64,000 nucleotides of DNA from Ruegeria sp. THAF33 (GTDB lineage Bacteria > Pseudomonadota > Alphaproteobacteria > Rhodobacterales > Rhodobacteraceae), in NCBI RefSeq assembly GCF_009363615.1, contig NZ_CP045384.1:3036501-3100500 (forward strand), read 5' to 3'. Below, piece after piece: positions 5,115 through 23,569 of this stretch (its first letter is position 1; each line of letters opens with the position of its first letter). A model generated the notes under the pieces. It ran no database searches. It had not been told where the DNA came from and worked only from the letters and a program-made list of their open reading frames with translations. The position numbers were made by a program, and so were the translations under genes.

Positions 5115-5708
5115 ATGACCCATGCCCTGCTCGTGATCGATGTCCAGAACGACTTCTGCCCAGGCGGGGCACTGGCCGTGGTAGAAGGGGACGAGATCGT
5201 CGCACAGATAAACGCCATGATGGATGAATTCGATGCCGTGATCCTGACTCAGGACTGGCATCCAGCGGGGCATTCTTCTTTTGCCAGTTCCCACGATGGC
5301 AAAAACCCGTTCGACCTGGTCGACATGCCCTATGGCCCACAGGTTCTGTGGCCCGACCACTGCGTGCAGGGCACGCGCGGCGCCGGGTTTCATCCCGAAT
5401 TGCGCACGGATGGCGACCTGATCCTTCGCAAGGGGTTCCGCAGTGCCATCGACAGCTATTCCGCATTCTTCGAGAATGACCACCAGACACCGACAGGCCT
5501 GAAAGGCTATTTGGATACACGCGGCATCGACCGTTTGACCCTTGTGGGATTGGCCACCGATTACTGCGTGCGTTATTCTGCGGTAGATGCCGCCAGGTTG
5601 GGTTTCGACGTCACGGTTCGCATGGGTGCCTGTCGCGCGATTGACATGGACGGTTCGCTGGCAGCCGCCGAACAGGCGATGCGGGATGCCGGCGTCCTAT
5701 TGACCTAA
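5115..5708 (+). CDS. pncA: Nicotinamidase
   Basis: Hydrolyses nicotinamide to nicotinate and ammonia, the first step of NAD salvage; also acts on pyrazinamide in this family. The 197-residue isochorismatase-fold protein shows the catalytic triad Asp9 (VIDVQNDF), Lys106 (LRKGF) and Cys151 (ATDYCV), and the metal-binding TQDWHP and DHC residues (Asp47, His49, His82). AGGAGG precedes the ATG. The next enzyme of the pathway, pncB, lies 0.7 kb downstream on the same strand but is separated by a gene on the opposite strand. Its stop shares CTAA with the stop of the convergent gene at 5705. Confidence 0.95.
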   Translation: MTHALLVIDVQNDFCPGGALAVVEGDEIVAQINAMMDEFDAVILTQDWHPAGHSSFASSHDGKNPFDLVDMPYGPQVLWPDHCVQGTRGAGFHPELRTDGDLILRKGFRSAIDSYSAFFENDHQTPTGLKGYLDTRGIDRLTLVGLATDYCVRYSAVDAARLGFDVTVRMGACRAIDMDGSLAAAEQAMRDAGVLLT

Positions 5709-6399: not shown

Positions 6400-7692
6400 A
6401 TGGTCGACATCGCGACCCGCGTCTACAATCACAAATGGAAGATTGACCCGATTGTACGGTCTTTGATCGATACTGATTTCTACAAACTGCTGATGTGCCA
6501 GTCAGTGTTTCGAAACAAGCCTCAAACAGATGTCGTTTTTTCGTTGATCAACCGGTCGAATCACGTACCTCTGGCGCGTTTGATCGATGAGGGAGAGCTG
6601 CGGGAACAGCTGGATCACATCCGCTCTCTCAGCCTCAGCCGTGGGGAAAGCACCTGGCTGCGCGGCAACATGTTCTACGGAAAACGGCAGATGTTCCGCT
6701 CGGACTTCATGGAGTGGTTCGAGAATTTGCGCCTGCCGCCCTATCACCTTGAACGCAAAGGTGACCAATTTGAACTGACCTTTGAAGGCAAGTGGCACGA
6801 GGTCATGCTGTGGGAAATTCCCGCGCTGGCGGTGTTGATGGAGCTGCGCTCGCGCGCGGTGCTTAACGATATGCGCCGGTTCGAATTGCAGGTGCTTTAC
6901 GCCCGCGCGATGACCCGGGTTTGGGAAAAGATCGAAAAGTTGAGCTCGATAAACGGGCTTGGGATCGCGGATTTCGGCACCAGACGGCGGCATTCCTTCC
7001 TGTGGCAGGATTGGTGCGTGCAGGCGATGATCGAAGGGCTGGGCGCATCCTTTACCGGAACTTCGAACTGCCTGATCGCCATGCGACGCGAAGTCGAGGC
7101 CATCGGCACCAATGCGCATGAACTGCCCATGGTCTATTCCGCGCTGGCCGATACGGATGAAGCGTTGGCGCAGGCGCCTTATGACGTGCTCAGCGACTGG
7201 CATGACGAACATGACGGCAACCTGCGCATCATCCTGCCCGACACCTATGGCACCAAGGGGTTTCTGGACAATGCTCCTGACTGGTTGGCGGGATGGACCG
7301 GCATTCGCATCGACAGCGGAGACCCGGCAGCAGCGGCCGAGGTCGCAATAGACTGGTGGAACGCACGCGGCGAAGACCCGACAGGGAAACGGATCATCTT
7401 CTCTGATGGTCTGGATGTCGAGAAAATTCAGGAATTGCATGCCCAGTTCGCGGGCCGCGCCAATATTTCCTTCGGTTGGGGAACCTTGCTGACCAACGAT
7501 TTTCGCGGACTCGTCCCCAATGACGCGCTGGCGCCGTTCTCATTGGTCTGCAAAGCGGTATCCGCCAATGGCCGCCCGACGGTCAAACTGTCGGACAACC
7601 CGGAAAAGGCTATGGGTCCGGAGGACCAGATCGAACGCTACAAGCGGGTGTTCGGCGTCGGAGCGCAAAAGGCGATCGAGGTGATCGTCTGA
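6400..7692 (+). CDS. pncB: Nicotinate phosphoribosyltransferase
   Basis: Converts nicotinate and PRPP to nicotinate mononucleotide, coupled to ATP hydrolysis, completing salvage begun by PncA. The 430-residue length and the landmarks fit PncB: SLIDTDFYKLLM near the N-terminus, DFGTRRRHSF near 191-200, FTGTSN, and the GTNAHE motif with His240 in the place of the phosphorylated active-site histidine, plus GIRIDSGD and SFGWGTLLTND. AGGAG stands before the ATG. The 164 bases upstream probably hold its own promoter; I see no clear operator. Confidence 0.95.
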   Translation: MVDIATRVYNHKWKIDPIVRSLIDTDFYKLLMCQSVFRNKPQTDVVFSLINRSNHVPLARLIDEGELREQLDHIRSLSLSRGESTWLRGNMFYGKRQMFRSDFMEWFENLRLPPYHLERKGDQFELTFEGKWHEVMLWEIPALAVLMELRSRAVLNDMRRFELQVLYARAMTRVWEKIEKLSSINGLGIADFGTRRRHSFLWQDWCVQAMIEGLGASFTGTSNCLIAMRREVEAIGTNAHELPMVYSALADTDEALAQAPYDVLSDWHDEHDGNLRIILPDTYGTKGFLDNAPDWLAGWTGIRIDSGDPAAAAEVAIDWWNARGEDPTGKRIIFSDGLDVEKIQELHAQFAGRANISFGWGTLLTNDFRGLVPNDALAPFSLVCKAVSANGRPTVKLSDNPEKAMGPEDQIERYKRVFGVGAQKAIEVIV

Positions 7693-7779
7693 ACCACGGC
7701 GGTGCATTCATCATTTATCGGCACCTCACCTGATGCTATTTTGGAAGGCATTCCCATTGAGCATTAAGGTTGAGATACA

Positions 7780-8940
7780 ATGATTTTTGAACCAAAGAAC
7801 TTCTACGATACCGGCGGATCCCGAGATGAGCTTTCACTTTTTTCCTACGCCGCATACCTGATATCCCGCGCGCAGTTTCTGCAAGCCGAAGGCGATGACA
7901 GCGACCTTTTCCTGTTGGGCCGCGATTTGGAAGAAACCGAAGATGCCGTTCTGTCCAAACAGCTTGTCATGCTCGGATTCCGGCCAATTGACGACCGCCA
8001 AATATCCGCCCACGAATACATGCGTTTCTTTGATGGCCCCGGCGATCCAAGGCCCGTTGACCTGCTTACTTCGCCAGAGCCTGAGGGGTATTACCAACAT
8101 TTGTTCGAGGCGATCAAAGCAGCAGAAGAACAGCCGAACGTCGAACATATTGACGCTGCTTTGAAGCTTGGACTGGCGGCCCCTGATTCAATTGTTGCTC
8201 TTGCCGCACTGAGTTCGTGCCTCAAACTGTATTCGCCGGAATCTTTTCCGCCACGTCTTTGGCTTGGTGTGTTTACGGCGCGTTGGGCGCAGTTGGAGCC
8301 GCTCTCGCAAGATTTGCTTACTGTGTTGTCGTCCGCTCTGATTTCAGACCCGCCGGGTTCGAAGATTCCACCGGCGCCCGCGCAACAGAAAGCCGGTGCG
8401 CCGGGGTTGCTTCTGGTTCATGGCACACACTTCGAAGTCAATCCCGACCCCACATGGTACTATCCCCATGTCGGAGATCTGCACAATTACATCAGGCCGC
8501 ATCGCAACGACATCTATTCAGGGCAAAACTACTATGAATGGGAGGGCCGGTGGTCCGACCGCGGCCGACATATTGCTGCCAAACACTTGAAAAACTGGAT
8601 AGATCTTGAGGCTTATCACGGCTGCGATGTGGTTGCCCACAGCCACGGCTGCAATGTCGTCATGAAAGCCGCCGAGATGGGGGCACATTTCAACAAGGTC
8701 GTTTTCTTGAGCTGCCCGGTACACTGGCACAAGTACAACCTGAATTCAGGCCGGATCAATGTGCCGTATTCTGTTCGGGTCTGGTTTGACCTGGTGATCC
8801 TGGCAGATGGCGGAAGACAAAAGTTCCCCGCCAGTGCCAACGTTGCCGACGAGGTCGTCGGAGGTTGGTTCAGTGGGCATTCTGCCACGCGGACATCACA
8901 GATTTGGGGCAATCATACATTGGAAGCAAAGCTGATCTGA
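7780..8940 (+). CDS. Alpha/beta hydrolase-like protein with a novel N-terminal domain
   Basis: A 386-residue cytoplasmic protein (no signal peptide). Residues 1-200 form a domain I do not recognise, rich in acidic residues and leucines. Residues 208-386 read as an alpha/beta hydrolase core: LLLVHGTHFE (strand and oxyanion loop), a nucleophile elbow AHSHG with Ser288 in which the first Gly of G-x-S-x-G is Ala, a following strand VVFLSCPVH, a candidate acid Asp343 (ILADGG) and a candidate His379 (WGNHTL). That order suggests a lipase/esterase-like serine hydrolase. It follows pncB by 87 bases and is convergent with the aldehyde dehydrogenase of the next operon, so context gives no substrate. 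Confidence 0.65.
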   Translation: MIFEPKNFYDTGGSRDELSLFSYAAYLISRAQFLQAEGDDSDLFLLGRDLEETEDAVLSKQLVMLGFRPIDDRQISAHEYMRFFDGPGDPRPVDLLTSPEPEGYYQHLFEAIKAAEEQPNVEHIDAALKLGLAAPDSIVALAALSSCLKLYSPESFPPRLWLGVFTARWAQLEPLSQDLLTVLSSALISDPPGSKIPPAPAQQKAGAPGLLLVHGTHFEVNPDPTWYYPHVGDLHNYIRPHRNDIYSGQNYYEWEGRWSDRGRHIAAKHLKNWIDLEAYHGCDVVAHSHGCNVVMKAAEMGAHFNKVVFLSCPVHWHKYNLNSGRINVPYSVRVWFDLVILADGGRQKFPASANVADEVVGGWFSGHSATRTSQIWGNHTLEAKLI

Positions 8941-8955
8941 ATTGCCTGGGAAATG

Positions 8956-10407
8956 TTATCCGTGAAACGCGGCAACTGTCTTCAACTGTGAAAAGCCGTA
9001 CAAAGCCTCGAACCCTTTTTCGCGGCCATGGCCGGATTTTCCCACCCCGCCAAACGGCAGTTCAACACCACCGCCTGCACCGTAGTTGTTGATGAAAACC
9101 TGACCCGAGTGCAGCGCTTTCGCCAACCGCATCTGCCGCGCGCCATCCCGCGTCCAGACGCTGGCGACAAGGCCGTACTCTGTACTATTCGCTATGGTCA
9201 GGGCCTGTTCTTCGGTGTCGAACGGGATCAGAACCTGGACGGGGCCGAAAATTTCGTCCTGTGCCAACTGATGATCTGGCGGCACGTCTGCGAACAAAGT
9301 GGGCCGGACATAGGCTCCGGTCTCTGGCGCGTCTTCGACAATCTGTCCCTGCGCAGCGATCGTCAGGTCCGTGGCGGTTTTCAGAAAGCCCCTGACAATC
9401 TGTTTCTGCCGGTCCGAGATCAACGGCCCAACCCGCAGATCCCGCATCGCCGGGCCGACAGTCAGTTCTTCATAGGCCTGGGACATGCGCGATCTGACCT
9501 GCTCATAAACGCCCCGCTGCACCAGGATCCGGGACGAGGCCGAACAGGTCTGGCCCGCATTTTGGATCCCCGCATTCACCAGAAACGGCAGCGCCGCATC
9601 CAGATCGGCATCGTCAAAAACCAATTGCGGGGATTTCCCGCCCAGTTCCAGCGTCACGGGCACCACGTTGCGTCCCGCCGCCTGCTGCACAAGGGCCCCT
9701 GTGGCAACTGAACCGGTGAACGAGATGTGGTTTACACCCGAATGTCCGGACAGCGCCGCACCCGCCTCGGCCCCCAGACCGGGCACGACATTCAAAGCAC
9801 CGGCCGGCAGCCCGGCCTGTTGCGCAAGATGGGCAAAGGCCAACGCGGTCAGACAGGCCTCTTCCGCAGGTTTCAGAACACAGGCGTTGCCCATGGCCAA
9901 CGCCGCCCCGACCGAACGCCCGATAATCTGCATCGGATAGTTCCAGGGCACGATATGGCCCGTCACCCCATGCGGTTCGCGCAGGGTATAGACGGTGTAG
10001 CCATCGAGATAGGGAATGGTCTCGCCCATCACCTTGTCGGCCGCGCCGCCGTAGAACTCGCAATAGCGCGCCAGGGCGACCGCGTCTGCCCGGGCCTGTG
10101 TCAGCGGTTTGCCGACATCCATCGCCTCAAGCCGCGCTAGATCGTCCACCCGTTCCAGCACCAGTTGGCCCAGCCGGGTCAGGATGCGGCCGCGTTCCAA
10201 CGCCGTCTTTCGCCCCCAATCACCATTCAACGCAGATCGGGCGGCTTGTACCGCCGCGTCGATTTCCGCCTCGGACCCTCGGGCGATCCGGCAGATCTCG
10301 GTCCCGTCCGAAGGGTTGATCAAGGGCAGGCTGTCGCCCGCAGCCGCCCGGATCCAGCGCCCGCCGATCAGGCACAAGGTGGGATCAAACCAAATCTTCT
10401 GGGTCAT
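8956..10407 (-). CDS. Aldehyde dehydrogenase at the end of the ABC/ligand-gated-channel operon
   Basis: NAD(P)-dependent oxidation of an aldehyde to a carboxylate; substrate unknown. The 483-residue protein has the NAD-binding VPWNYPMQ region, catalytic Glu254 (VTLELGGKSP), catalytic Cys288 (GQTCSA) and the C-terminal PFGGVGKSGHGRE. The ATG at 10407 is preceded by GGAGG at ideal spacing, and is preferred over a start nine codons upstream. It is the last gene of the minus-strand cluster, 33 bases after the ATPase stop, so it is likely co-transcribed with the transporter and may act on a product of the imported compound. It resembles betaine/aminoaldehyde dehydrogenases in general form but is clearly distinct from the BetB at 1559. 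Confidence 0.85.
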   Translation of the reverse strand: MTQKIWFDPTLCLIGGRWIRAAAGDSLPLINPSDGTEICRIARGSEAEIDAAVQAARSALNGDWGRKTALERGRILTRLGQLVLERVDDLARLEAMDVGKPLTQARADAVALARYCEFYGGAADKVMGETIPYLDGYTVYTLREPHGVTGHIVPWNYPMQIIGRSVGAALAMGNACVLKPAEEACLTALAFAHLAQQAGLPAGALNVVPGLGAEAGAALSGHSGVNHISFTGSVATGALVQQAAGRNVVPVTLELGGKSPQLVFDDADLDAALPFLVNAGIQNAGQTCSASSRILVQRGVYEQVRSRMSQAYEELTVGPAMRDLRVGPLISDRQKQIVRGFLKTATDLTIAAQGQIVEDAPETGAYVRPTLFADVPPDHQLAQDEIFGPVQVLIPFDTEEQALTIANSTEYGLVASVWTRDGARQMRLAKALHSGQVFINNYGAGGGVELPFGGVGKSGHGREKGFEALYGFSQLKTVAAFHG

Positions 10408-10440
10408 TTTGGGCCTCCAATCAGGATCTAACAAGGAACT

Positions 10441-12039
10441 TTATGCCGTCAGCGGCCTTATCTCGGGCAACCGGGGCGCAGCGGCAATCAGGGTTTGCGT
10501 ATAGGGATGTTGCGGATTTTCGAACACCTGCTTGGTCTGACCCTGTTCGACGATCCGCCCGGACTGCATCACAAGCACACGGTCGGTGATCGTGCGGACA
10601 ACGCTCAGGTCATGGCTGATGAACAGATAGGTCAGGTCATAGGCATCGCACAGTTCAGCGAGCAGATCGAGGATCTGTGCACGGACCGAAACGTCAAGCG
10701 CCGAAACCGCCTCGTCGAACAGGATCAGATCGGGCCGGATGATCAGGGCGCGTGCAATGGCGATCCGTTGTCGTTGCCCGCCCGAGAATTCGTGGATGTA
10801 CTTGCCCGCGTCGTCGGGGCTGAGGCCGACGGCCGTCAATATTTCCGAGATCCGATCCTGTCGATCTGATCCGGTGGGCGGGGTGTCCAGCAAGTGGAAA
10901 GGCTCGGTGATCAGGCGCGCGACACGATGGCGGGGGTTGAAGCTGCCATATGGGTCCTGAAACACAACCTGCATCCTTCGACGTACGGCAAGGTTGGATT
11001 TGTGACCGGTGAATACCGGCTGACCACCCAACCGGATTTGACCGGACTGAACCTCCTCCAGGCCCAGAATTGCCCGTGTCAGGGTCGATTTTCCACATCC
11101 GGATTCCCCGACCAGCCCCAACCGCTCGCCTCGGTTGAGGCAGAAGCTGACACCATCCACCGCCCGGTGATGGCGCGGCGCGTCCAACAGGCCTTTTCGG
11201 GGCAATCGGTAGTCCCGGACAACCTGGGTTACCTCCAGCAACGTTTGCGGTTGTGCGGGTTCCGGCAAAGTGACCTGATGACCAGACGCCTCGAACAGCA
11301 TTCGGGTATAAGGGTGTTGCATGTGACGCAGCAGGTGCTGTGTGGCCCCGCTTTCAACCACTTCTCCGTGGCGCATCACGATGATCTGGTCGGCCATATC
11401 AGAGACAACAGCCAGATCATGGGTGATCATCAGCAGCCCCATGTCGTATTCGCGCACCAGCCCCTTGAGCAGGTCGAGAATCTGCGCCTGTGTCGTGACG
11501 TCCAGCGCTGTCGTCGGCTCGTCCGCGATCAGCAGCCTGGGGCGCAGAGCGATGGCCATGGCAATGACCACGCGTTGCCGTTGCCCGCCGGACAGTTCGT
11601 GCGGATAGCGGGAAAGGGGGAACCGATCAGGTGGCAGGCCGACGCGGGTCAGCACCTCTTTGGCGCGTGTTCGGGCCTGGGTCGGGGGCATCGCCTTGTG
11701 GATCAGGATCGTCTCCATCACCTGATCACCGATGGTTTTCACCGGATTGAGCGCTGTCATCGGTTCCTGAAACACCATCCCCACGGACGCGCCGCGCAAG
11801 GCGCACAAATCGGGCTCTGACCGTGTCAACAGATCCTGACCGTCCAGCCAGATCGCACCTTCCGTGCTGGCCGCATGCGGCAGCAGTTGCATTACCGCCA
11901 ATGCGGTCATCGATTTGCCCGAACCGCTTTCACCCGTCACCGCCACGATCTGGCCGGGGTCGATCGACAAGCTGACCTGTTTCAGAATCGGTATCCCGTG
12001 GATCGTCAGCGACAGGTTTTCAATCTGCAAGAAACTCAT
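10441..12039 (-). CDS. Dipeptide/nickel-type ABC transporter ATPase, fused DppD-DppF
   Basis: A 532-residue protein carrying two complete ABC ATPase domains, equivalent to DppD and DppF joined. The first has Walker A GESGSGKS (36-43), signature LSGGQRQRV and Walker B LLIADEPTTALD; the second has GESGCGKS, FSGGQRQRI and LILFDEAVSALD. Each half also has the C-terminal extension typical of the peptide/opine/nickel family (HPYTRML and HPYTQTL). It energises the two permeases encoded immediately upstream; its ATG overlaps the second permease stop by four bases (ATGA), indicating translational coupling. Fused ATPases of this kind are known in the GsiA-like group. Confidence 0.92.
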   Translation of the reverse strand: MSFLQIENLSLTIHGIPILKQVSLSIDPGQIVAVTGESGSGKSMTALAVMQLLPHAASTEGAIWLDGQDLLTRSEPDLCALRGASVGMVFQEPMTALNPVKTIGDQVMETILIHKAMPPTQARTRAKEVLTRVGLPPDRFPLSRYPHELSGGQRQRVVIAMAIALRPRLLIADEPTTALDVTTQAQILDLLKGLVREYDMGLLMITHDLAVVSDMADQIIVMRHGEVVESGATQHLLRHMQHPYTRMLFEASGHQVTLPEPAQPQTLLEVTQVVRDYRLPRKGLLDAPRHHRAVDGVSFCLNRGERLGLVGESGCGKSTLTRAILGLEEVQSGQIRLGGQPVFTGHKSNLAVRRRMQVVFQDPYGSFNPRHRVARLITEPFHLLDTPPTGSDRQDRISEILTAVGLSPDDAGKYIHEFSGGQRQRIAIARALIIRPDLILFDEAVSALDVSVRAQILDLLAELCDAYDLTYLFISHDLSVVRTITDRVLVMQSGRIVEQGQTKQVFENPQHPYTQTLIAAAPRLPEIRPLTA

Positions 12040-12851
12040 GCCCGCGCCACCCTGATCCGGGGATCCAGCCAGTCCCGCATTCCGTCGCCCAACACGTTCA
12101 GACCCAGCACCGTGACGATGATCGACAGACCCGGAATCAGAGCCAAATGCGGGGCAAAACTGACCATCGTCTGCGCGTCTGCCAGCATCCGGCCCCAGCT
12201 GGGCGTTGGAGGTTGAGCGCCCAGACCTACATATGACAGGCCCGCTTCGGCCAGAATGCCAAGGCTGAACTGGATGGTCCCCTGCACGATCAGCAGATTG
12301 GCCACGTTGGGCAGAATATGTTCAGCCGATATCCGCGCGGCCCCTTTGCCCGACACACGGGCGGCGAGGATGAACTCTCTCTCCCAAAGCGACAAAGCAG
12401 CCCCGCGGGTGATACGGGCAAAGACGGGGATGTTGAAAATACCGATCGCAACAATGGCGTTGATCGCTCCGGCGCCATAGACGGCCGTGATCAGGATGGC
12501 GATCACCAGCGAGGGGAAAGCGAAGACCAGATCATTGCCACGCATGATGACCTCATCCAGCCATGAGCCTTTGCGCGCGGCCGCTGCCAGGCCAAGAGGA
12601 ACGCCGATTGCCATGCCGATGCCGACGGCCACCAACGCCACCGCAATCGACGTACGCGCACCGACCATGATCATCGAGAACATGTCGCGGCCGAAATGAT
12701 CGGTCCCAAACCAATGCTGCCCGTTTGGTGGCTGCAATTTATTGGGAATGTCCAGCGCGGCATGGTCGTAAGGGGTCCAAATGAACGAGACCAACGCGGC
12801 CAGAACCACCAGCGACGACAACAAGGCCCCAACGATCAGGTTCCGGTTCAT
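12036..12851 (-). CDS. ABC transporter permease, DppC type
   Basis: Inner-membrane permease of the family-5 peptide/opine/nickel uptake class, 271 residues, with about six hydrophobic segments. It begins with the short N-terminal helix and HWFGTDHFGRDMFS segment characteristic of DppC proteins, and contains the EAA-type coupling loop (AARVSGKGAARISAEHILPN) and a GLGAQPPTPSWGRML stretch conserved in this subfamily. It overlaps the genes on both sides by four bases. It would pair with the DppB-type permease to form the channel for the substrate bound by the protein encoded at 14969. Confidence 0.92.
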   Translation of the reverse strand: MNRNLIVGALLSSLVVLAALVSFIWTPYDHAALDIPNKLQPPNGQHWFGTDHFGRDMFSMIMVGARTSIAVALVAVGIGMAIGVPLGLAAAARKGSWLDEVIMRGNDLVFAFPSLVIAILITAVYGAGAINAIVAIGIFNIPVFARITRGAALSLWEREFILAARVSGKGAARISAEHILPNVANLLIVQGTIQFSLGILAEAGLSYVGLGAQPPTPSWGRMLADAQTMVSFAPHLALIPGLSIIVTVLGLNVLGDGMRDWLDPRIRVARA

Positions 12852-13795
12852 ATCCTGCTCCTCAGTCGTGGGTCCACGGCCGCATAAGCAAGATCGACAA
12901 GGAAATTGACCGTTATCACGGCAAAGACCAGCAACATCACGACCGATTCCACGACGATGAGGTCTCGGGCAGAAATGGCCTGAAACACCAGCCGCCCGAG
13001 GCCCGGCAGATAGAACACCTGTTCAATTATGATCGATCCCGCCAGCAGGAAGGAAAACTGCAAGCCGATGATGGTCAGCACCGGAATCAGCGCATTTCGC
13101 ACCCCATGCCGCCAAAGGGCCTGACGACGGGACAGGCCCTTGGCCCGAGCCGTGCGCATGAAATCCTCACCCAGAATGTCCAGCAAGGCCGACCGCATGA
13201 CGCGCGCCAGAATCGCCGCCTGTGGCAAGGCAAGAGCCACGGCAGGCAGGGTCAGGGAATGCAGGCCGACCCACAGACCGTCGTTCCAACCGGCAAACCC
13301 GCCCGCATTGAACCAGCGCAGATTGATGGCGAAGATCAGCACAAGCATCATCGCGAACCAGAAGTTCGGGACTGCGATGCCAAGCTGCGTCGCCCCCATC
13401 ACTGCAAGGTCCCCCGGTTTGCCCCGACGCGCAGCGGCATAAATTCCGGCGGGAAAGGCGATCAACGTGGACAGCGTCAGCGCATAAAGTGCCAGGGGCA
13501 ACGATACCCACAGCCGGTCAGCGATCATCTGCGACACCGGTGTGCGATAGGTGTATGACGTGCCGAAATCGCCCACCAGCATGCCGCCAACCCAGTGGAA
13601 ATAGCGCTGTATCCTGGACGCATCCAAACCCAGCTCGGCCCGCAACGCGGCCAGCGTGTCCTCCTGCGCGTTGACGCCCAGCATGAACGACGCCGGATCA
13701 CCCGGGGCAACCTCGATCACGGCGAAGATGACCACCGAGGCGACGGCCAGGCTGACAAGCAAGGAAATCAGTCGTTTGAGGACGTAGCGGAGCAT
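12848..13795 (-). CDS. ABC transporter permease, DppB type
   Basis: Inner-membrane permease, 315 residues from the ATG at 13795; a GTG three codons upstream is possible and neither has a strong ribosome binding site. The N-terminal helix (RYVLKRLISLLVSL), the GDFGTSYTYRTPV segment, the coupling loop near ARAKGLSRRQALWRHGVRNALIP and the C-terminal FYLPGLGRLVFQA are hallmarks of DppB proteins. It follows the ligand-gated channel gene by about 40 bases and is coupled to the DppC-type gene by an ATGA overlap. Substrate specificity cannot be read from the permease. Confidence 0.9.
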   Translation of the reverse strand: MLRYVLKRLISLLVSLAVASVVIFAVIEVAPGDPASFMLGVNAQEDTLAALRAELGLDASRIQRYFHWVGGMLVGDFGTSYTYRTPVSQMIADRLWVSLPLALYALTLSTLIAFPAGIYAAARRGKPGDLAVMGATQLGIAVPNFWFAMMLVLIFAINLRWFNAGGFAGWNDGLWVGLHSLTLPAVALALPQAAILARVMRSALLDILGEDFMRTARAKGLSRRQALWRHGVRNALIPVLTIIGLQFSFLLAGSIIIEQVFYLPGLGRLVFQAISARDLIVVESVVMLLVFAVITVNFLVDLAYAAVDPRLRSRI

Positions 13796-13835
13796 TGGCA
13801 CCACGTTAGGGTCACATCAGGCACGGGTCCAGCGT

Positions 13836-14906
13836 CTAAGGCACCAGAAGGAAAGCGGAAACCGCATAGGCAACGATCGCGGCATAGCCCAGTGGATAGA
13901 TCCACTTGATCGCATAATTGTCCAAAGTGCGCGCCGCCCCCTCCTTGCCGGACACTTTCAATCGTCGCAGCGCGACGTTGAACACGATCAGCGCCCCGGT
14001 CATCAGGAACATACACTGAAGGACAAAATCCAGAAAAGTCAGATAACCCAGCTTGGGCAGATCTGCGGATATTGCCCAGTTGAACGCGACGAAGACCAGC
14101 AGGTTGCCGCCCGCAATCTCGATCCTCCGGCGGTATTCATCCAGAAAAAACAGCGCCCAGCCGACCGAGATCAAGACAAGCATCGGCAGGAAAACCCGAA
14201 TGACGTAATAGGTCAGATGTCGATTGCCCTCAAAAACAAGCGCGACCTGATCGCTTTCTTTGCCGGATAGACCCAAGACCCTGGATGTTTCCAACCGTGC
14301 ATTGTTCAGAATCCATTCTTCTTCGCCCAACTGATCTCCGAGGCCCGAGAATTCGTTCAACGGATGGTAATTGACGTATTCAGAGGGAAAGACCGAAACG
14401 ACCTCGAAATGAAACTCCTGCGTGTCGAACGGGTATTTTCGGAAATCGAAATGAGGCGCCTGGAGTGTAAGAGACGATTTTTCGACATACAGCACCCGTC
14501 CGTCGTAACGCAGGGATGCGGCGGATTCGTGGATCCACTTGTTGGACTGCTGATTGTGAATGACAAAAGCCGGCAGAACGGACCCGATACTTGCCGCGTG
14601 ATTTGCAAGGTCGGGCGGGTTGAAGACCCGGACATCCCTCCCCAGTTCCTCGGGATCAAACGCCAGCGCCGGATCGGTCCATTCCACCCGCAAGACCACA
14701 ACCGCGCCATAGTTTTCGGCCTTTTGATCAACACCGGTGATCTGGTCGATGCGAATTCCGATCCCAACATTCAACGGGTTCTCGGGCGTTCCGGGAAGGG
14801 CATCCATCCGACCCCCCAACACATTCTGCGCCGTGGCCGCGACAGAGGAACCGAGCACCAGAAAAAAACCTAAAACCAAGACGGGAATGGCACGGAGCAA
14901 GAACAT
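13836..14906 (-). CDS. Pentameric ligand-gated ion channel (prokaryotic Cys-loop receptor homologue)
   Basis: A 356-residue channel subunit of the GLIC/ELIC type. A signal peptide (1-27, ending ATAQ) is followed by a beta-rich extracellular/periplasmic ligand-binding domain (28-230) containing VEWTDPALAF (the W-x-D motif) and KYPFDTQEF (157-165), the counterpart of the Cys-loop in which both cysteines are replaced (Pro151, Phe165), as usual in bacteria. Four membrane helices follow: M1 about 233-255, M2 about 262-283 ending in LPKLGYLT, M3 about 288-312 and M4 about 335-355. By hand alignment to GLIC, Leu270 is the 9' gate residue, Glu263 is at 2' and Arg259-261 are at -2' to 0'. The ATG at 14906 is chosen because the signal peptide starts there and AGGGTG lies nine bases upstream. 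It lies between the binding-protein gene and the permeases of one ABC operon. The fold assignment is strong; ligand and ion selectivity are unknown. Confidence 0.9.
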   Translation of the reverse strand: MFLLRAIPVLVLGFFLVLGSSVAATAQNVLGGRMDALPGTPENPLNVGIGIRIDQITGVDQKAENYGAVVVLRVEWTDPALAFDPEELGRDVRVFNPPDLANHAASIGSVLPAFVIHNQQSNKWIHESAASLRYDGRVLYVEKSSLTLQAPHFDFRKYPFDTQEFHFEVVSVFPSEYVNYHPLNEFSGLGDQLGEEEWILNNARLETSRVLGLSGKESDQVALVFEGNRHLTYYVIRVFLPMLVLISVGWALFFLDEYRRRIEIAGGNLLVFVAFNWAISADLPKLGYLTFLDFVLQCMFLMTGALIVFNVALRRLKVSGKEGAARTLDNYAIKWIYPLGYAAIVAYAVSAFLLVP

Positions 14907-14934
14907 ACGTGAGAACACCCTGACACAATGGAAG

Positions 14935-14961
14935 GCCCAGGCCGCCCGGCGCGGCCCGGGC
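14935..14961 (-). other. Strong mRNA hairpin between the binding-protein and channel genes
   Basis: On the transcribed strand GCCCGGGCCGC pairs with GCGGCCTGGGC across a five-base loop: an 11-bp stem with one G-U pair. No T-run follows, so it is unlikely to stop transcription completely. Stem-loops just after a binding-protein gene commonly protect its mRNA from 3' decay and so allow more binding protein than membrane components; that role is inferred here. Confidence 0.6.
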
Positions 14962-14968
14962 TGTAACA

Positions 14969-16456
14969 TTACTCGGACCAGCTGATCTGAGTCAGATCGA
15001 TTGCGGCGGTGGGCGCGTTCTCCCAAAGGCCCTGAACGCCGACTTTCGCAACGCCCAGTTTGGCCAACTGGAACAGGTAGCCATTGACATAGTCGCTTGC
15101 GATCAGGCGCTGCGCCTCACCCAGCAAACGGGTGCGTTCTTCGGGGTCGGTGGTGGTGTTCAGAGTGTCCATCAGCGCCTGAAAATCCGTGCTGTCATAC
15201 TGAAAGTAATAATCAGGCCGCGCATAAATACCGATATCCATAGGCTCGGTATGGCTGACGATGGTCAGACCGAATTCCTTGCCCTTGAACACGGATTCCA
15301 GCCATTGGGCCCATTCCACATTGATGATCTCGGCCGTGATGCCAACCTCGGCCAGCTGCGCCGCTATGATTTCGCCCCCACGACGGGCGTAAGACGGCGG
15401 GGGCAAATGCAATGTGGTCTCGAACCCATTTTCGAATCCCGCCTCGGCCAGCAACTCTCTGGCTTTTTCGGGGTCGTAAGCGGATTGCGCGGTCAGATCG
15501 ACGTAAGCCGGGTTGTGCGGCGCAAAGTGGGTTCCGATCGGCGTGCCATAGCCAAACATTGCGCCGTCGATGATCGCCTGCCGGTCAATGGCATGGGCCA
15601 ATGCCTGACGAACAAGGATATCATCAAACGGAGGTTGCTTGTTGTTGGTGGACAGGATCGTCTCACCTTCGGTCGACCCCACAAGGACCTGAAAGCGCGG
15701 GTCGGCCTCGAACTGAGGCAGGTTTTCCGGCGCCGGGAAGTTGTCAAACACGTCGACATCCTCGGCCATCATGGCGGCAAAAGCGGCGGTCGGGTCCGAG
15801 ATGAACTTGAACGTCGCAGTCTCTAATTCGGGCTGTTCGCCCCAGTAATCGGGGTTTCGGTTCAGCGTGATACTGTCGCCCTGCACCCAGTTTCCAAAGG
15901 TATAGGCACCGGTACCAACCGGGTTGGTCTTGATGTTGTCTATGCTTTCCGGCGCGACGATGACCGCATCCCCCCAGGCCAGGTTGAACAGGAAATTTCC
16001 GTTCGGTTCTGACAGGGTAACCTTCACGGTCAGCGGGTCGACGACCTCGACGGTTTCGATACCGGCAAACAGGGCCTTCTGCGCATTGGCGCTGTCTTCA
16101 GCGGTTGCGCGGTCAAGGCTGAATTTGACATCCTCGGCGTCCATGGTGGTGCCATCATGGAAGGTCACCCCGTCATGCAGGTTAAAGGTATAGACCGTCC
16201 CGTCTTCGGAAATCTCCCAGCTTTCCGCCAATCCGGGCACAACCGAGCCGTCGCCCATGAAACGTGTCAGGCCTTCGAAGATATTGGTGTAAACCACCGA
16301 GTCGATGGCTTGCGCCGCGGCGCTAGTCGGGTCCAGATGCGGAGGCTCAAGCTGCATCGCAATGGTGATGTCCGACTTGGCCAAAGCCTGCGTGGAAAGC
16401 AGGCTGGCCCCTACGGCCAGGGTCGATGCAAATGTCCGGAACAGGAATTTTGTCAT
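14969..16456 (-). CDS. Periplasmic substrate-binding protein, family 5 (DppA/OppA type)
   Basis: A 495-residue exported binding protein. The signal peptide is about 1-26 (cleavage after QALA). The mature part has the family-5 features: SDITIAMQLEPPHLDP at the start, the signature segment beginning YTFNLHDGVTFHDGTTMDAEDVKFSLDR, NRNPDYWG, and VRQALAHAIDRQAII. Ligands in this family include oligopeptides, dipeptides, nickel, opines and glutathione; I cannot tell which applies. The ATG at 16456 has GGGAGAG upstream and fits the signal peptide, unlike an in-frame start 16 codons earlier. It is the first gene of the cluster and is followed after 62 bases by the ligand-gated channel gene. Confidence 0.92.
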   Translation of the reverse strand: MTKFLFRTFASTLAVGASLLSTQALAKSDITIAMQLEPPHLDPTSAAAQAIDSVVYTNIFEGLTRFMGDGSVVPGLAESWEISEDGTVYTFNLHDGVTFHDGTTMDAEDVKFSLDRATAEDSANAQKALFAGIETVEVVDPLTVKVTLSEPNGNFLFNLAWGDAVIVAPESIDNIKTNPVGTGAYTFGNWVQGDSITLNRNPDYWGEQPELETATFKFISDPTAAFAAMMAEDVDVFDNFPAPENLPQFEADPRFQVLVGSTEGETILSTNNKQPPFDDILVRQALAHAIDRQAIIDGAMFGYGTPIGTHFAPHNPAYVDLTAQSAYDPEKARELLAEAGFENGFETTLHLPPPSYARRGGEIIAAQLAEVGITAEIINVEWAQWLESVFKGKEFGLTIVSHTEPMDIGIYARPDYYFQYDSTDFQALMDTLNTTTDPEERTRLLGEAQRLIASDYVNGYLFQLAKLGVAKVGVQGLWENAPTAAIDLTQISWSE

Positions 16457-21663: not shown

Positions 21664-22680
21664 TTAACTTTTGTCATGTACCTCGGACCAGCAAGGCAAC
21701 AGATCGCCTGCGGCCGGAGTCGCCAGATACACGGCGCGCGCAATAGCTCGCGCCAGGCACAGCGAGGCCGCATGCCCGATGACACCTGGTTCGGTGTCGG
21801 TGGCGACACTCCGCGCGCCCGTGCTGACCCCGAATACCAGATCACCATCCCCCGGCGTGTGGGCGGGTACAATGGCGCGGGCAATACCGTCATGGGCGGC
21901 AACGGCCAGTCTCTGACATTGCGGTTTGGTCAGGGCCGCATCCGTCGCAACGATGGCAATCGTGGTATTGGCCTTGTCCGGGTTCGCGGACTGCATCACC
22001 TGCGCTTTGCGACTGACCGTTGGTTGGCCAAGTCCGGCATTGGGATCAGGCCCCAACCCACCGAACTCGCCGTCCACTTCAAAGGGGGCTGCCCAGAAAT
22101 GCCTGTCACCCGGCGTGGTGACACTGCCCAGCGGATTGACCGCAACCAATGCGCCAACGGTAACACCACTGTCCAAAACAACCGAGGCCGAACCCAACCC
22201 GCCTTTGTGCATCGCGGTCAAAGCCCCGGTTCCTGCACCTGCTGTTCCGAGTTCGAACCGGTCCGACGCGGATTCGAACGCCGCACGGCCCAAGGCGCGA
22301 TAGGGATTCTCGTACCACGCCTTGTGGCCGCCATTCAGCAGGTCGAACAGGATTGCCCCGGGCACGATCGGCACCACGGCGGAACCCACCTTGAACCCGC
22401 GGCCCAGGGCATGCAGCGCATCCATGACGCCCGAACAGGCATCCAGCCCGAAGGCCGACCCGCCCGAAAGCACGATCGCATCCACCTTTTCAACGGTCTT
22501 GTCGGCGGCCAGCAAATCTGTCTCGCGCGTGCCGGGAGCGCCACCCATCACATGCACCGAGGCGCGGAGTGGTTGCGCGCCGGTCAGGACGGTGACGCCT
22601 GATTTCAAAGTTGCGTTCTGTGCGTTGCCGACCTTCAGGCCGGGGACATCCGTGATCAGGTTTCTGGGTCCGGGGATCAT
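21664..22680 (-). CDS. P1-family peptidase (DmpA/NylC-like)
   Basis: A 338-residue member of the self-processing Ntn-hydrolase-like family that includes the aminopeptidase DmpA and 6-aminohexanoate oligomer hydrolase. The opening PRNLITDVPGLKVGNAQ, the LSGGSAFGLDA segment and the KGGLGSASVVL and GALVAVNPLGSVT segments are all characteristic. Members are cleaved into two chains before a Ser/Thr nucleophile; I cannot fix the cleavage site with certainty here. No signal peptide is visible. It lies downstream of the SDR gene on the same strand, separated by a repeat element, so co-transcription is doubtful. Substrate unknown. Confidence 0.82.
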   Translation of the reverse strand: MIPGPRNLITDVPGLKVGNAQNATLKSGVTVLTGAQPLRASVHVMGGAPGTRETDLLAADKTVEKVDAIVLSGGSAFGLDACSGVMDALHALGRGFKVGSAVVPIVPGAILFDLLNGGHKAWYENPYRALGRAAFESASDRFELGTAGAGTGALTAMHKGGLGSASVVLDSGVTVGALVAVNPLGSVTTPGDRHFWAAPFEVDGEFGGLGPDPNAGLGQPTVSRKAQVMQSANPDKANTTIAIVATDAALTKPQCQRLAVAAHDGIARAIVPAHTPGDGDLVFGVSTGARSVATDTEPGVIGHAASLCLARAIARAVYLATPAAGDLLPCWSEVHDKS

Positions 22681-22762: not shown

Positions 22763-23509
22763 TCAGATGCATCGGCCTCCGTCCACCTCGAGCGCGGCGC
22801 CGGTGATCATGCTGGCCTCGTCCGAACACAGGAAACAGGCGGCATTGGCCATATCTTCGGGGGTTGAGAAGCGGCCCAACGGGATGGTCGACAGGAATTT
22901 TGCACGGATTTCGGGCGTATCCTCGCCCATGAAGGATTTCAATAGCGGCGTTTCCCCGGCAACCGGGCAGATCGCGTTCACCCGCACGCCGGACGGGGCG
23001 AGCTCGACCGCCATCGTTTTGGTTGCGGTGATCATCCAGCCCTTGGAAGCGTTGTACCAGTTCAGGTTCGGGCGCGGTGACAGGCCCGCGGTTGAAGCAA
23101 CATTCAGTATTGAACCCGCCCCGCACGCCTTCATGGGTGGAACCAATGCGCGGGCGGTCAGATAGACGGATTTCATGTTCACGTTGAAAACACGGTCGAA
23201 ATCCGCTTCGCTTACCTCCTCCAGCGGCGCCGGCAAGTGGGTCACACCGGCGTTGTTCACAAGGATGTCCAGATGGCCGAAGGTTGAGAAAGCCGCATCC
23301 GCCATCTTTTGAACCGAAGCGCCCTCGCCTACATCGACCTGCTGGGCAACCGCCTCGGACCCAAGCCGGGTTGCGAGTTCATGCGCAGCATCGCCATTGA
23401 TGTCAGCGATCATGACACGCGCGCCTTCGGCCAGGAACTTCCTTACGATCCCCGCACCAAACCCGGATGCACCGCCAGTGACGATTGCGGTTTTTCCCTC
23501 CAGCCTCAT
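22763..23509 (-). CDS. Short-chain dehydrogenase/reductase
   Basis: A 248-residue NAD(P)-dependent classical SDR, FabG-like. It has the nucleotide-binding TGGASGFG, the Asp of IADINGD that favours NAD(H), NNAG, the catalytic Ser (NVASTAG), Tyr and Lys (YNASKG), and the C-terminal DGGRCI. The ATG at 23509 has GGAGAG upstream. It stands between arfB and a P1 peptidase; neighbours do not reveal the substrate. A role in 3-hydroxyacid or sugar-alcohol oxidation is as plausible as fatty-acid synthesis. Confidence 0.88.
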   Translation of the reverse strand: MRLEGKTAIVTGGASGFGAGIVRKFLAEGARVMIADINGDAAHELATRLGSEAVAQQVDVGEGASVQKMADAAFSTFGHLDILVNNAGVTHLPAPLEEVSEADFDRVFNVNMKSVYLTARALVPPMKACGAGSILNVASTAGLSPRPNLNWYNASKGWMITATKTMAVELAPSGVRVNAICPVAGETPLLKSFMGEDTPEIRAKFLSTIPLGRFSTPEDMANAACFLCSDEASMITGAALEVDGGRCI

Positions 23510-23569
23510 GGTGTTACTCTCCTGCACCTTTTGCAGGCCAGACTATCAACGCCCGGACGAGATGCCAGA

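Follow-up and report, generated by a model that had tools for sequence, protein, structure and literature searches.

A pentameric ligand-gated ion channel gene between the binding-protein and permease genes of a Ruegeria Dpp/PepT-type importer: conserved linkage and variable slot content

Why should a gene for a relative of neurotransmitter receptors lie inside a transport gene cluster? The question is raised by a 64,000-nt stretch of Ruegeria sp. THAF33 (contig NZ_CP045384.1, positions 3,036,501 to 3,100,500; hereafter the window, whose numbering we use), in which a pentameric ligand-gated ion channel (pLGIC) gene separates the solute-binding protein (SBP) gene from the permease genes of an ATP-binding cassette (ABC) importer. 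The in vivo role of such bacterial receptor relatives is largely open, and a sequence-only reading of this locus had proposed that channel and transporter answer to the same periplasmic ligand. Comparing genomes, we arrive at a different account, whose chances we judge to be about even: the conserved Dpp/PepT-type uptake system would consist of two transcription units with an exchangeable slot between them, the channel would be an accessory gene occupying that slot, and we infer its expression, gating and role from that arrangement. Pfam domain matches bear out the six minus-strand genes at 8956-16456 in the order first read from the sequence, and start and stop coordinates agree with the gaps then given on either side of the channel gene, 62 bp from the SBP stop to the channel ATG and 40 bp from the channel stop to the dppB ATG at 13795:

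14969..16456, minus strand: SBP gene, family-5 solute-binding protein of 495 aa (PF00496, E 1e-95; ATG at 16456)
14907..14968, minus strand: SBP-channel gap, with a GC-rich hairpin (11-bp stem, no U-tract)
13836..14906, minus strand: channel gene, pLGIC of 356 aa (PF02931; ATG at 14906, stop ends at 13836)
13804..13831, minus strand: bipartite element TGGACC-N16-CTAACG, 8 nt 5′ of the dppB ATG
12848..13795, minus strand: dppB, DppB-type permease (PF00528, PF19300)
12036..12851, minus strand: dppC, DppC-type permease (PF00528, E 1.5e-32)
10441..12039, minus strand: dppDF, fused DppD-DppF double ATPase of 532 aa (two ABC_tran stretches and oligo_HPY)
8956..10407, minus strand: aldH, aldehyde dehydrogenase (PF00171, Aldedh, E 4.3e-153)

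With a binding protein, two permeases and two ATPase domains, the cluster encodes a complete Dpp/PepT-type ABC importer. The SBP has a signal peptide (judged by eye) and its gene a Shine-Dalgarno (SD) sequence; the dppDF start codon overlaps the dppC stop. The dppB reading frame opens with an in-frame GTG at 13804, and the conserved start is the ATG at 13795.

The gene order recurs widely in relatives. Among the 50 named loci retrieved by the channel sequence, 44 carry the channel together with the SBP and dpp genes, the closest being from Ruegeria (channels up to 87% identical); the six exceptions are Aliiruegeria, Shimia, three Chloroflexi metagenome-assembled genomes and Thiocapsa. Extra genes separate channel and dppB in four of the 44 (L025 and L031-L033), among them a DAO-family oxidoreductase gene in L025. 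The channel frame is broken in L051, also one of the 44, and the L025 locus is cut by the locus end but whole in L170. Within the genus, a DppB orthologue is present in 54/54 genomes and the channel in 38/54. Coordinates compared by hand place the channel 5′ of dppB on the same strand in 38/38, at 29-59 bp between match ends in 37 and at 6.6 kb in one, which rules out a chance neighbour. Nothing pointed to mobile cargo: there was no plasmid match, and no relative in viral contigs.

Of 295 family genomes, 25 gave any channel match and 15 a match at E 1.4e-59 or better; 12 of these 15 orthologue-grade channels lie at the importer, among them one with a broken frame and one fragment at a contig end, 5 kb from dppB, and three lie elsewhere (G207, G100 and G007, the G007 copy broken), while G213 carries a linked channel plus a second, unlinked copy. 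Linked orthologue-grade channels span nine genus codes when intact, or 11 with the broken copy and the contig-end fragment. Several unlinked orthologues adjoin housekeeping genes (for example typA/alaS, sufS or ispH, by eye), and in a class-wide sample a channel match was found in 8 of 385 genomes, the window's own included. Across 50 loci, channel distances correlate with those of SBP (r 0.87), DppB (0.77) and DppDF (0.73), with 0/500 permutations as high. In a 111-row transporter tree (whose labels mark L020 as channel-less despite its channel, and from which L010 is absent), every channel locus falls within one 75-row clade; the 11 state changes on that tree are an overcount because picking of open reading frames missed some genes. 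On these comparisons, the linkage of channel and importer is real and old. Broken or cut channel copies (L051/L133, L063/L077, L186 and L114) suggest that loss is in progress in some lineages.

The same comparisons show the importer without the channel. In 16 of the 54 genus genomes, DppB is 92-95% identical and the SBP 89-93% identical to the window's, SBP and permeases are in place, and no channel match is found, ruling out an obligate transporter subunit. The interval between SBP and dppB, which we call the slot, holds in these 16 a 339-aa secreted protein in nine, an antisense SH3 protein in four (a label from a Pfam run on one of the four), nothing in two, and a truncated case in one. The 339-aa protein (e.g. 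L201:4355-5374 and eight further genus loci, in dppB orientation) has no Pfam match and looks Sel1/TPR-like by eye only; at ≥61% identity it occurs in 10/54 genus genomes, namely the nine slot cases and one channel genome, there outside the slot. The truncated case, L211 (a channel-less genome of 89% completeness), has a truncated SBP apparently fused to dppB in a 651-aa frame, possibly an assembly fault.

Slot content varies further in the family. We examined 71 family loci, taken as the highest-identity DppB matches (DppB was matched in 183/295 family genomes). The slot held the channel in 10 (four of them duplicates of named loci, one of these broken) and another insert of >800 bp in 23, the SBP-dppB gap was <250 bp in 15 and 487-551 bp in three, and 20 had no SBP match upstream in the stretch, one of these with a channel fragment. 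The duplicates (L132, L133, L145 and L170) are all counted in the 71 and all left out of the element count below, and three of them are left out of the 111-locus clustering. The channel is thus not found wherever the importer is (38/54 in the genus; 10/71 family loci in the slot, plus one fragment). In 14 loci a Hist_deacetyl-family gene lies upstream of dppB on the opposite strand (assigned by clustering, with Pfam run on one), and three Leisingera loci have both this gene and the channel; other family genes found upstream of dppB encode a cupin, a tannase, a GMC oxidoreductase and a cyclase, several on the opposite strand. Because slot content varies around a kept SBP and kept permeases, we treat the importer as the constant and the channel as the variable. 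Transporter trees of 55 loci, built from either flank, require at least 10 slot-state changes and 7-8 changes between channel and no channel; they mix channel-query rows with all channel-less genus genomes, and their outgroup rows carry the channel by that choice.

Candidate transcription signals flank the slot. Upstream of dppB, the pattern T[TG]GACC-N14..19-[CT]TAA[CT]N is present in 75 of 130 loci (mononucleotide-shuffle rate 0.0004), and in all 75 the boxes are separated by 16 nt and lie 7-9 nt from the dppB ATG. The window's own form, TGGACC-N16-CTAACG, recurs within two mismatches in 44 of the 78 loci outside the Ruegeria set (which include two named Ruegeria, L038 and L049) and in 0/78 at control offsets. 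An SD-like 4-mer precedes dppB in 3/130 loci. For comparison, SD-like sites in genus loci precede the SBP gene in 51/52, dppC in 50/52, aldH in 51/51 and dppDF in 0/52, and the channel in 1/36, a weak count given that some channel starts are unaligned. These features would fit a promoter with a leaderless start at dppB, located 3′ of the channel. With a conserved promoter-like element downstream of the channel, a single transcript from SBP to aldH becomes doubtful. On the other side of the slot, the hairpin (75 nt from the last SBP codon) has a predicted energy of -31.8 kcal/mol and a z score of -2.1 in the window. Its median z is -2.2 over 53 channel loci, scored with 60 approximate dinucleotide shuffles per locus, with exceptions at L215 (+0.3), L026 (-0.5) and L031 (-1.0). 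It is likely the 3′ end or an attenuator of the SBP message, and as predicted features the hairpin after SBP and the element before dppB would argue against one transcript across the cluster.

The channel itself has an intact frame, a signal peptide (by eye) and no Cys-loop cysteines. It carries the ligand-binding domain Neur_chan_LBD (PF02931, E 2.4e-13; 50.5 bits against a cut-off of 26). Among solved structures its closest matches are 6fl9 (E 2e-77) and 6v4a (E 2e-74), both near full length, followed by GLIC (E 1e-24). The alignment runs without a break over residues 43-342 with 6fl9 and 47-348 with 6v4a and takes in the membrane domain with its M2 pore; the Pfam membrane-domain model has no match in the channel, and NCBIfam LGIC_1 and LIC match below their cut-offs. 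6fl9 is sTeLIC and 6v4a is DeCLIC; the loop names and pore numbering used here rest on the GLIC alignment. The residue numbers of 6v4a agree with the DeCLIC numbering in PMC9897478, and on that numbering, counted by hand in the alignment, channel residues E64 and E195-E197 fall on E347 and E479-E481 of the DeCLIC calcium site. Among 59 channels (50 linked and 9 unlinked), E64, E195 and E196 are present in 59/59 and E197 in 58/59. With the DeCLIC/sTeLIC subgroup the channel shares the near full-length alignment, the DeCLIC calcium-site glutamates in loop F (GEEEW) and in the beta1-beta2 loop, and an acidic pore 2′ position (E263 in the window; E or D in 59/59).

It differs from DeCLIC in having no N-terminal double jelly-roll domain. 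The canonical domain follows after just 44 or so residues, most of them signal peptide, and for this reason we class it as sTeLIC-like rather than DeCLIC-type. Three Chloroflexi channel relatives (L046, L047 and L048) do have about 300 extra N-terminal residues, as in DeCLIC. From both sTeLIC and DeCLIC the window channel also differs in having Trp rather than Phe at pore 16′; its gene adjoins those of an ABC importer. GLIC belongs to the same family and aligns over residues 38-341 but is much more distant, and R259 of the window channel occupies the column of the GLIC -2′ glutamate (by alignment). Two residues separate linked from unlinked channels: pore 16′ (W277) is W in 50/50 linked versus F in 9/9 unlinked, and K143 is present in 50/50 versus 0/9.

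Conservation within the periplasmic domain is uneven. The calcium-site stretches and loops A and E reach 3.8-4.05 bits, while loops B and C, the usual agonist-binding places, reach 2.86 and 2.93 against a domain mean of 3.27; loop C (209-222) contains one F, W or Y in total across the 50 linked sequences. None of these 50 has a stop inside the matched region, and the median dN/dS of the channel is 0.081 over 28 comparisons, beside 0.035-0.078 for neighbouring genes, values that are rough because dS is saturated (median 1.5). By this measure the channel is under purifying selection. We infer a predicted cation channel that lacks the classical aromatic box for agonists and is tuned by calcium, with pH as a possible second influence. 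GLIC and ELIC are gated by protons or small amines, with ELIC responding to primary amines, and sTeLIC is set by pH. The earlier guess of an amine-derived ligand is weak for this channel, with its nearest solved relatives being sTeLIC and DeCLIC and with a single loop C aromatic in 50 sequences.

The accessory-gene reading builds on gene order, the importer with and without the channel, the other slot occupants, purifying selection, the conserved calcium-site and pore residues and the dppB element, all of them shown by the sequences compared. The layout would be an SBP unit ended by the hairpin, then the slot, then a unit of promoter-like element and dppB-dppC-dppDF-aldH. The channel would be expressed at a low level through read-through from the SBP promoter and form a cation-conducting pentamer in the inner membrane. 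Ca2+ may keep its periplasmic domain closed, as happens in DeCLIC, or pH may set that domain, as in sTeLIC, or both, so that a fall in periplasmic divalent ions or the binding of some organic ligand would open the channel and let cations enter while the SBP gene is switched on. Such a channel could be useful in its niche and dispensable for uptake, and this proposed dispensability would explain why, time and again, the slot is occupied by other genes or by none. A broader version is rather unlikely in our estimate: that the SBP-dppB interval has evolved as an accessory slot of the roseobacter importer, expressed with SBP, in which strains exchange periplasmic or envelope modules (pLGIC, the 339-aa protein, enzymes), and that the channel, as one such module, translates periplasmic conditions into an influx of cations when the importer is active.

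Several observations weigh against the accessory-gene reading. A missing SD is common to dppB and dppDF (0/52) and so is not special to dppB. The element is matched once in the window and once in all 4.63 Mb of the genome, against 11 genome matches for a backwards control; it is therefore no common form of promoter in this genome and could instead be an operator, and a sigma-70 scan found no site at it. The strict form is missing from 55 of the 130 loci, and related loci in the element counts are not independent. Conservation of the calcium site falls short of proving that calcium gates the channel, and the sampling of the 55-locus trees leaves loss and gain indistinguishable. Finally, the near-exclusive linkage in channel genomes (12/15 in the family) would point to a functional tie, which a distant case mildly favours as well.

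That case comes from the short flanks of 12 distant channel relatives (seven from the family, five from other families of the class), inspected mostly by eye. None of these short flanks held Dpp genes and two, G180 and G106, had transport genes; longer stretches were examined for these two alone. In G180 (L228), a 25% identical channel at about 8800-9863 follows a DctM-type TRAP permease gene (6587-8707) on the same strand by about 90 bp (by eye), itself preceded by a TRAP-type binding protein (by eye). Upstream on the channel's strand lie dppB (71% identical; 487-1434), dppC, dppDF and an aldehyde dehydrogenase (31%). This neighbourhood apparently arose independently, and would favour some tie of channels to importers. 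In G106 (L229), the genes before a 24% identical channel (6877-7923) are an ABC_trans_aux lipoprotein gene and, by eye, genes like PqiA/PqiB.

How far other accounts fit can be judged from the same data. The slot might be no more than a permissive site, a safe insertion point at which the channel landed in a roseobacter ancestor and was then simply inherited, its function having nothing to do with the transporter. The variety of unrelated genes found upstream of dppB, several of them in opposite orientation, would be expected of such a site, as would unlinked orthologues beside housekeeping genes and the restriction of channel loci to one clade of the 111-row tree; complete linkage in the 38 genus channel genomes, W277 and K143 fixed in all 50 linked channels, and the second, distant channel beside an importer in G180 would not, and we regard hitchhiking as possible but not probable. 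The sequence-only reading, in which channel and SBP recognize a common periplasmic ligand, either an amine or an N-acyl amine, with the channel giving a fast ion signal and transporter and dehydrogenase using the compound, keeps part of its footing: the linkage is real and old, SBP and channel divergence correlate at r 0.87, and G180 pairs a distant channel after a TRAP importer with dppBCDF and aldehyde dehydrogenase genes upstream. Neighbouring enzymes in relatives (M20, Hist_deacetyl-family, S58 and SDR) suggest an amide or N-acyl compound, and Tasneem et al. 2004 (PMC549065) proposed cooperation of channel and PBP-II genes.

The sequence-only reading had itself named, as a finding that would count against it, a channel missing from close relatives with the same ABC genes, and 16/54 genus genomes are of this kind; it is weakened because these relatives keep the importer. 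Loops B and C are moreover among the variable parts of the domain, and loop C has its single aromatic in 50 sequences, leaving a shared ligand improbable. A more direct coupling, with the loaded SBP docking on the channel's periplasmic domain to open or close it, could draw on the adjacency of the two genes, on SBP tracking channel divergence best of the three genes (0.87 versus 0.77 and 0.73), and on a precedent for SBPs stimulating receptors in the abstract of PMC9602780. Genus genomes that lack the channel still have an SBP with 89-93% identity to that of the window, which speaks against such docking, and we think it very improbable.

Family-5 SBPs share the fold of PBP-II proteins. Tasneem et al. 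(PMC549065) reported predicted operons that pair bacterial pLGIC genes with PBP-II genes, and proposed a chemoreceptor role. As in those pairs, the window channel adjoins a stand-alone periplasmic binding protein gene, an arrangement kept in 44 of the 50 named loci, but it is surrounded by the genes of a complete importer and a dehydrogenase, and close relatives differ in what the slot contains. The importer resembles Dpp/Opp (peptide/nickel/opine) systems in its SBP_bac_5 protein, two BPD_transp_1 permeases and two ABC_tran domains, and differs in its fused ATPases and attached aldehyde dehydrogenase. Searches of the open literature for such a channel with an importer or with roseobacters gave PMC549065 as the one relevant paper, as judged from titles and opening lines of abstracts, and no description of this importer slot; PMC4795631 had no term match. 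The gene pairing thus appears already known in kind, and the exchange of slot content new. It carries a warning that the neighbourhood of channel and transporter genes is not to be read as a shared ligand. It also supplies a natural comparison: in a single genus, a closely similar importer occurs with the channel in 38 genomes and without it in 16, with clear alternative slot contents, so that the phenotype of a channel deletion or slot swap is directly testable in a marine bacterium.

Clues to the importer substrate come from enzymes. The dehydrogenase had been likened to aminoaldehyde enzymes; NCBIfam models for phenylacetaldehyde, betaine-aldehyde and aminobutyraldehyde dehydrogenases score about equally and all below their cut-offs, which takes the force from that comparison, and the nearest PDB chain, 4ywe, is a 'putative aldehyde dehydrogenase'. 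The M20 deacylase, Hist_deacetyl-family protein, S58 (NylC/DmpA-like) peptidase and SDR encoded beside the importer in relatives suggest an amide or N-acyl compound. A polyamine substrate was rejected as unproven: HDLP is the closest match of the Hist_deacetyl-family neighbour, and the matches listed (60 of 136) include no acetylpolyamine amidohydrolase. For the R. pomeroyi homologue (SPO0097-SPO0101), no experimental substrate was found in the literature searched.

The window has its own S58 (DmpA/NylC-type) peptidase gene (21664-22680, minus strand) and SDR gene (22763-23527, minus strand), with pan, glpK, smpB, idi and cytochrome genes (named by eye) between them and aldH; relatives of both follow the importer's aldH in many other family loci. 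Beside aldH, a strain-variable gene at 7780-8940 encodes a 386-aa hydrolase-like protein (by eye), with counterparts among the compared loci in L012 (46%), L170, L215 and L216. A nicotinate phosphoribosyltransferase-like gene at 6400-7692 (by eye) lies 3′ of the importer in 62 of the 111 clustered loci, and beyond it a nicotinamidase-like gene (5115-5708 in the window) is found in 35.

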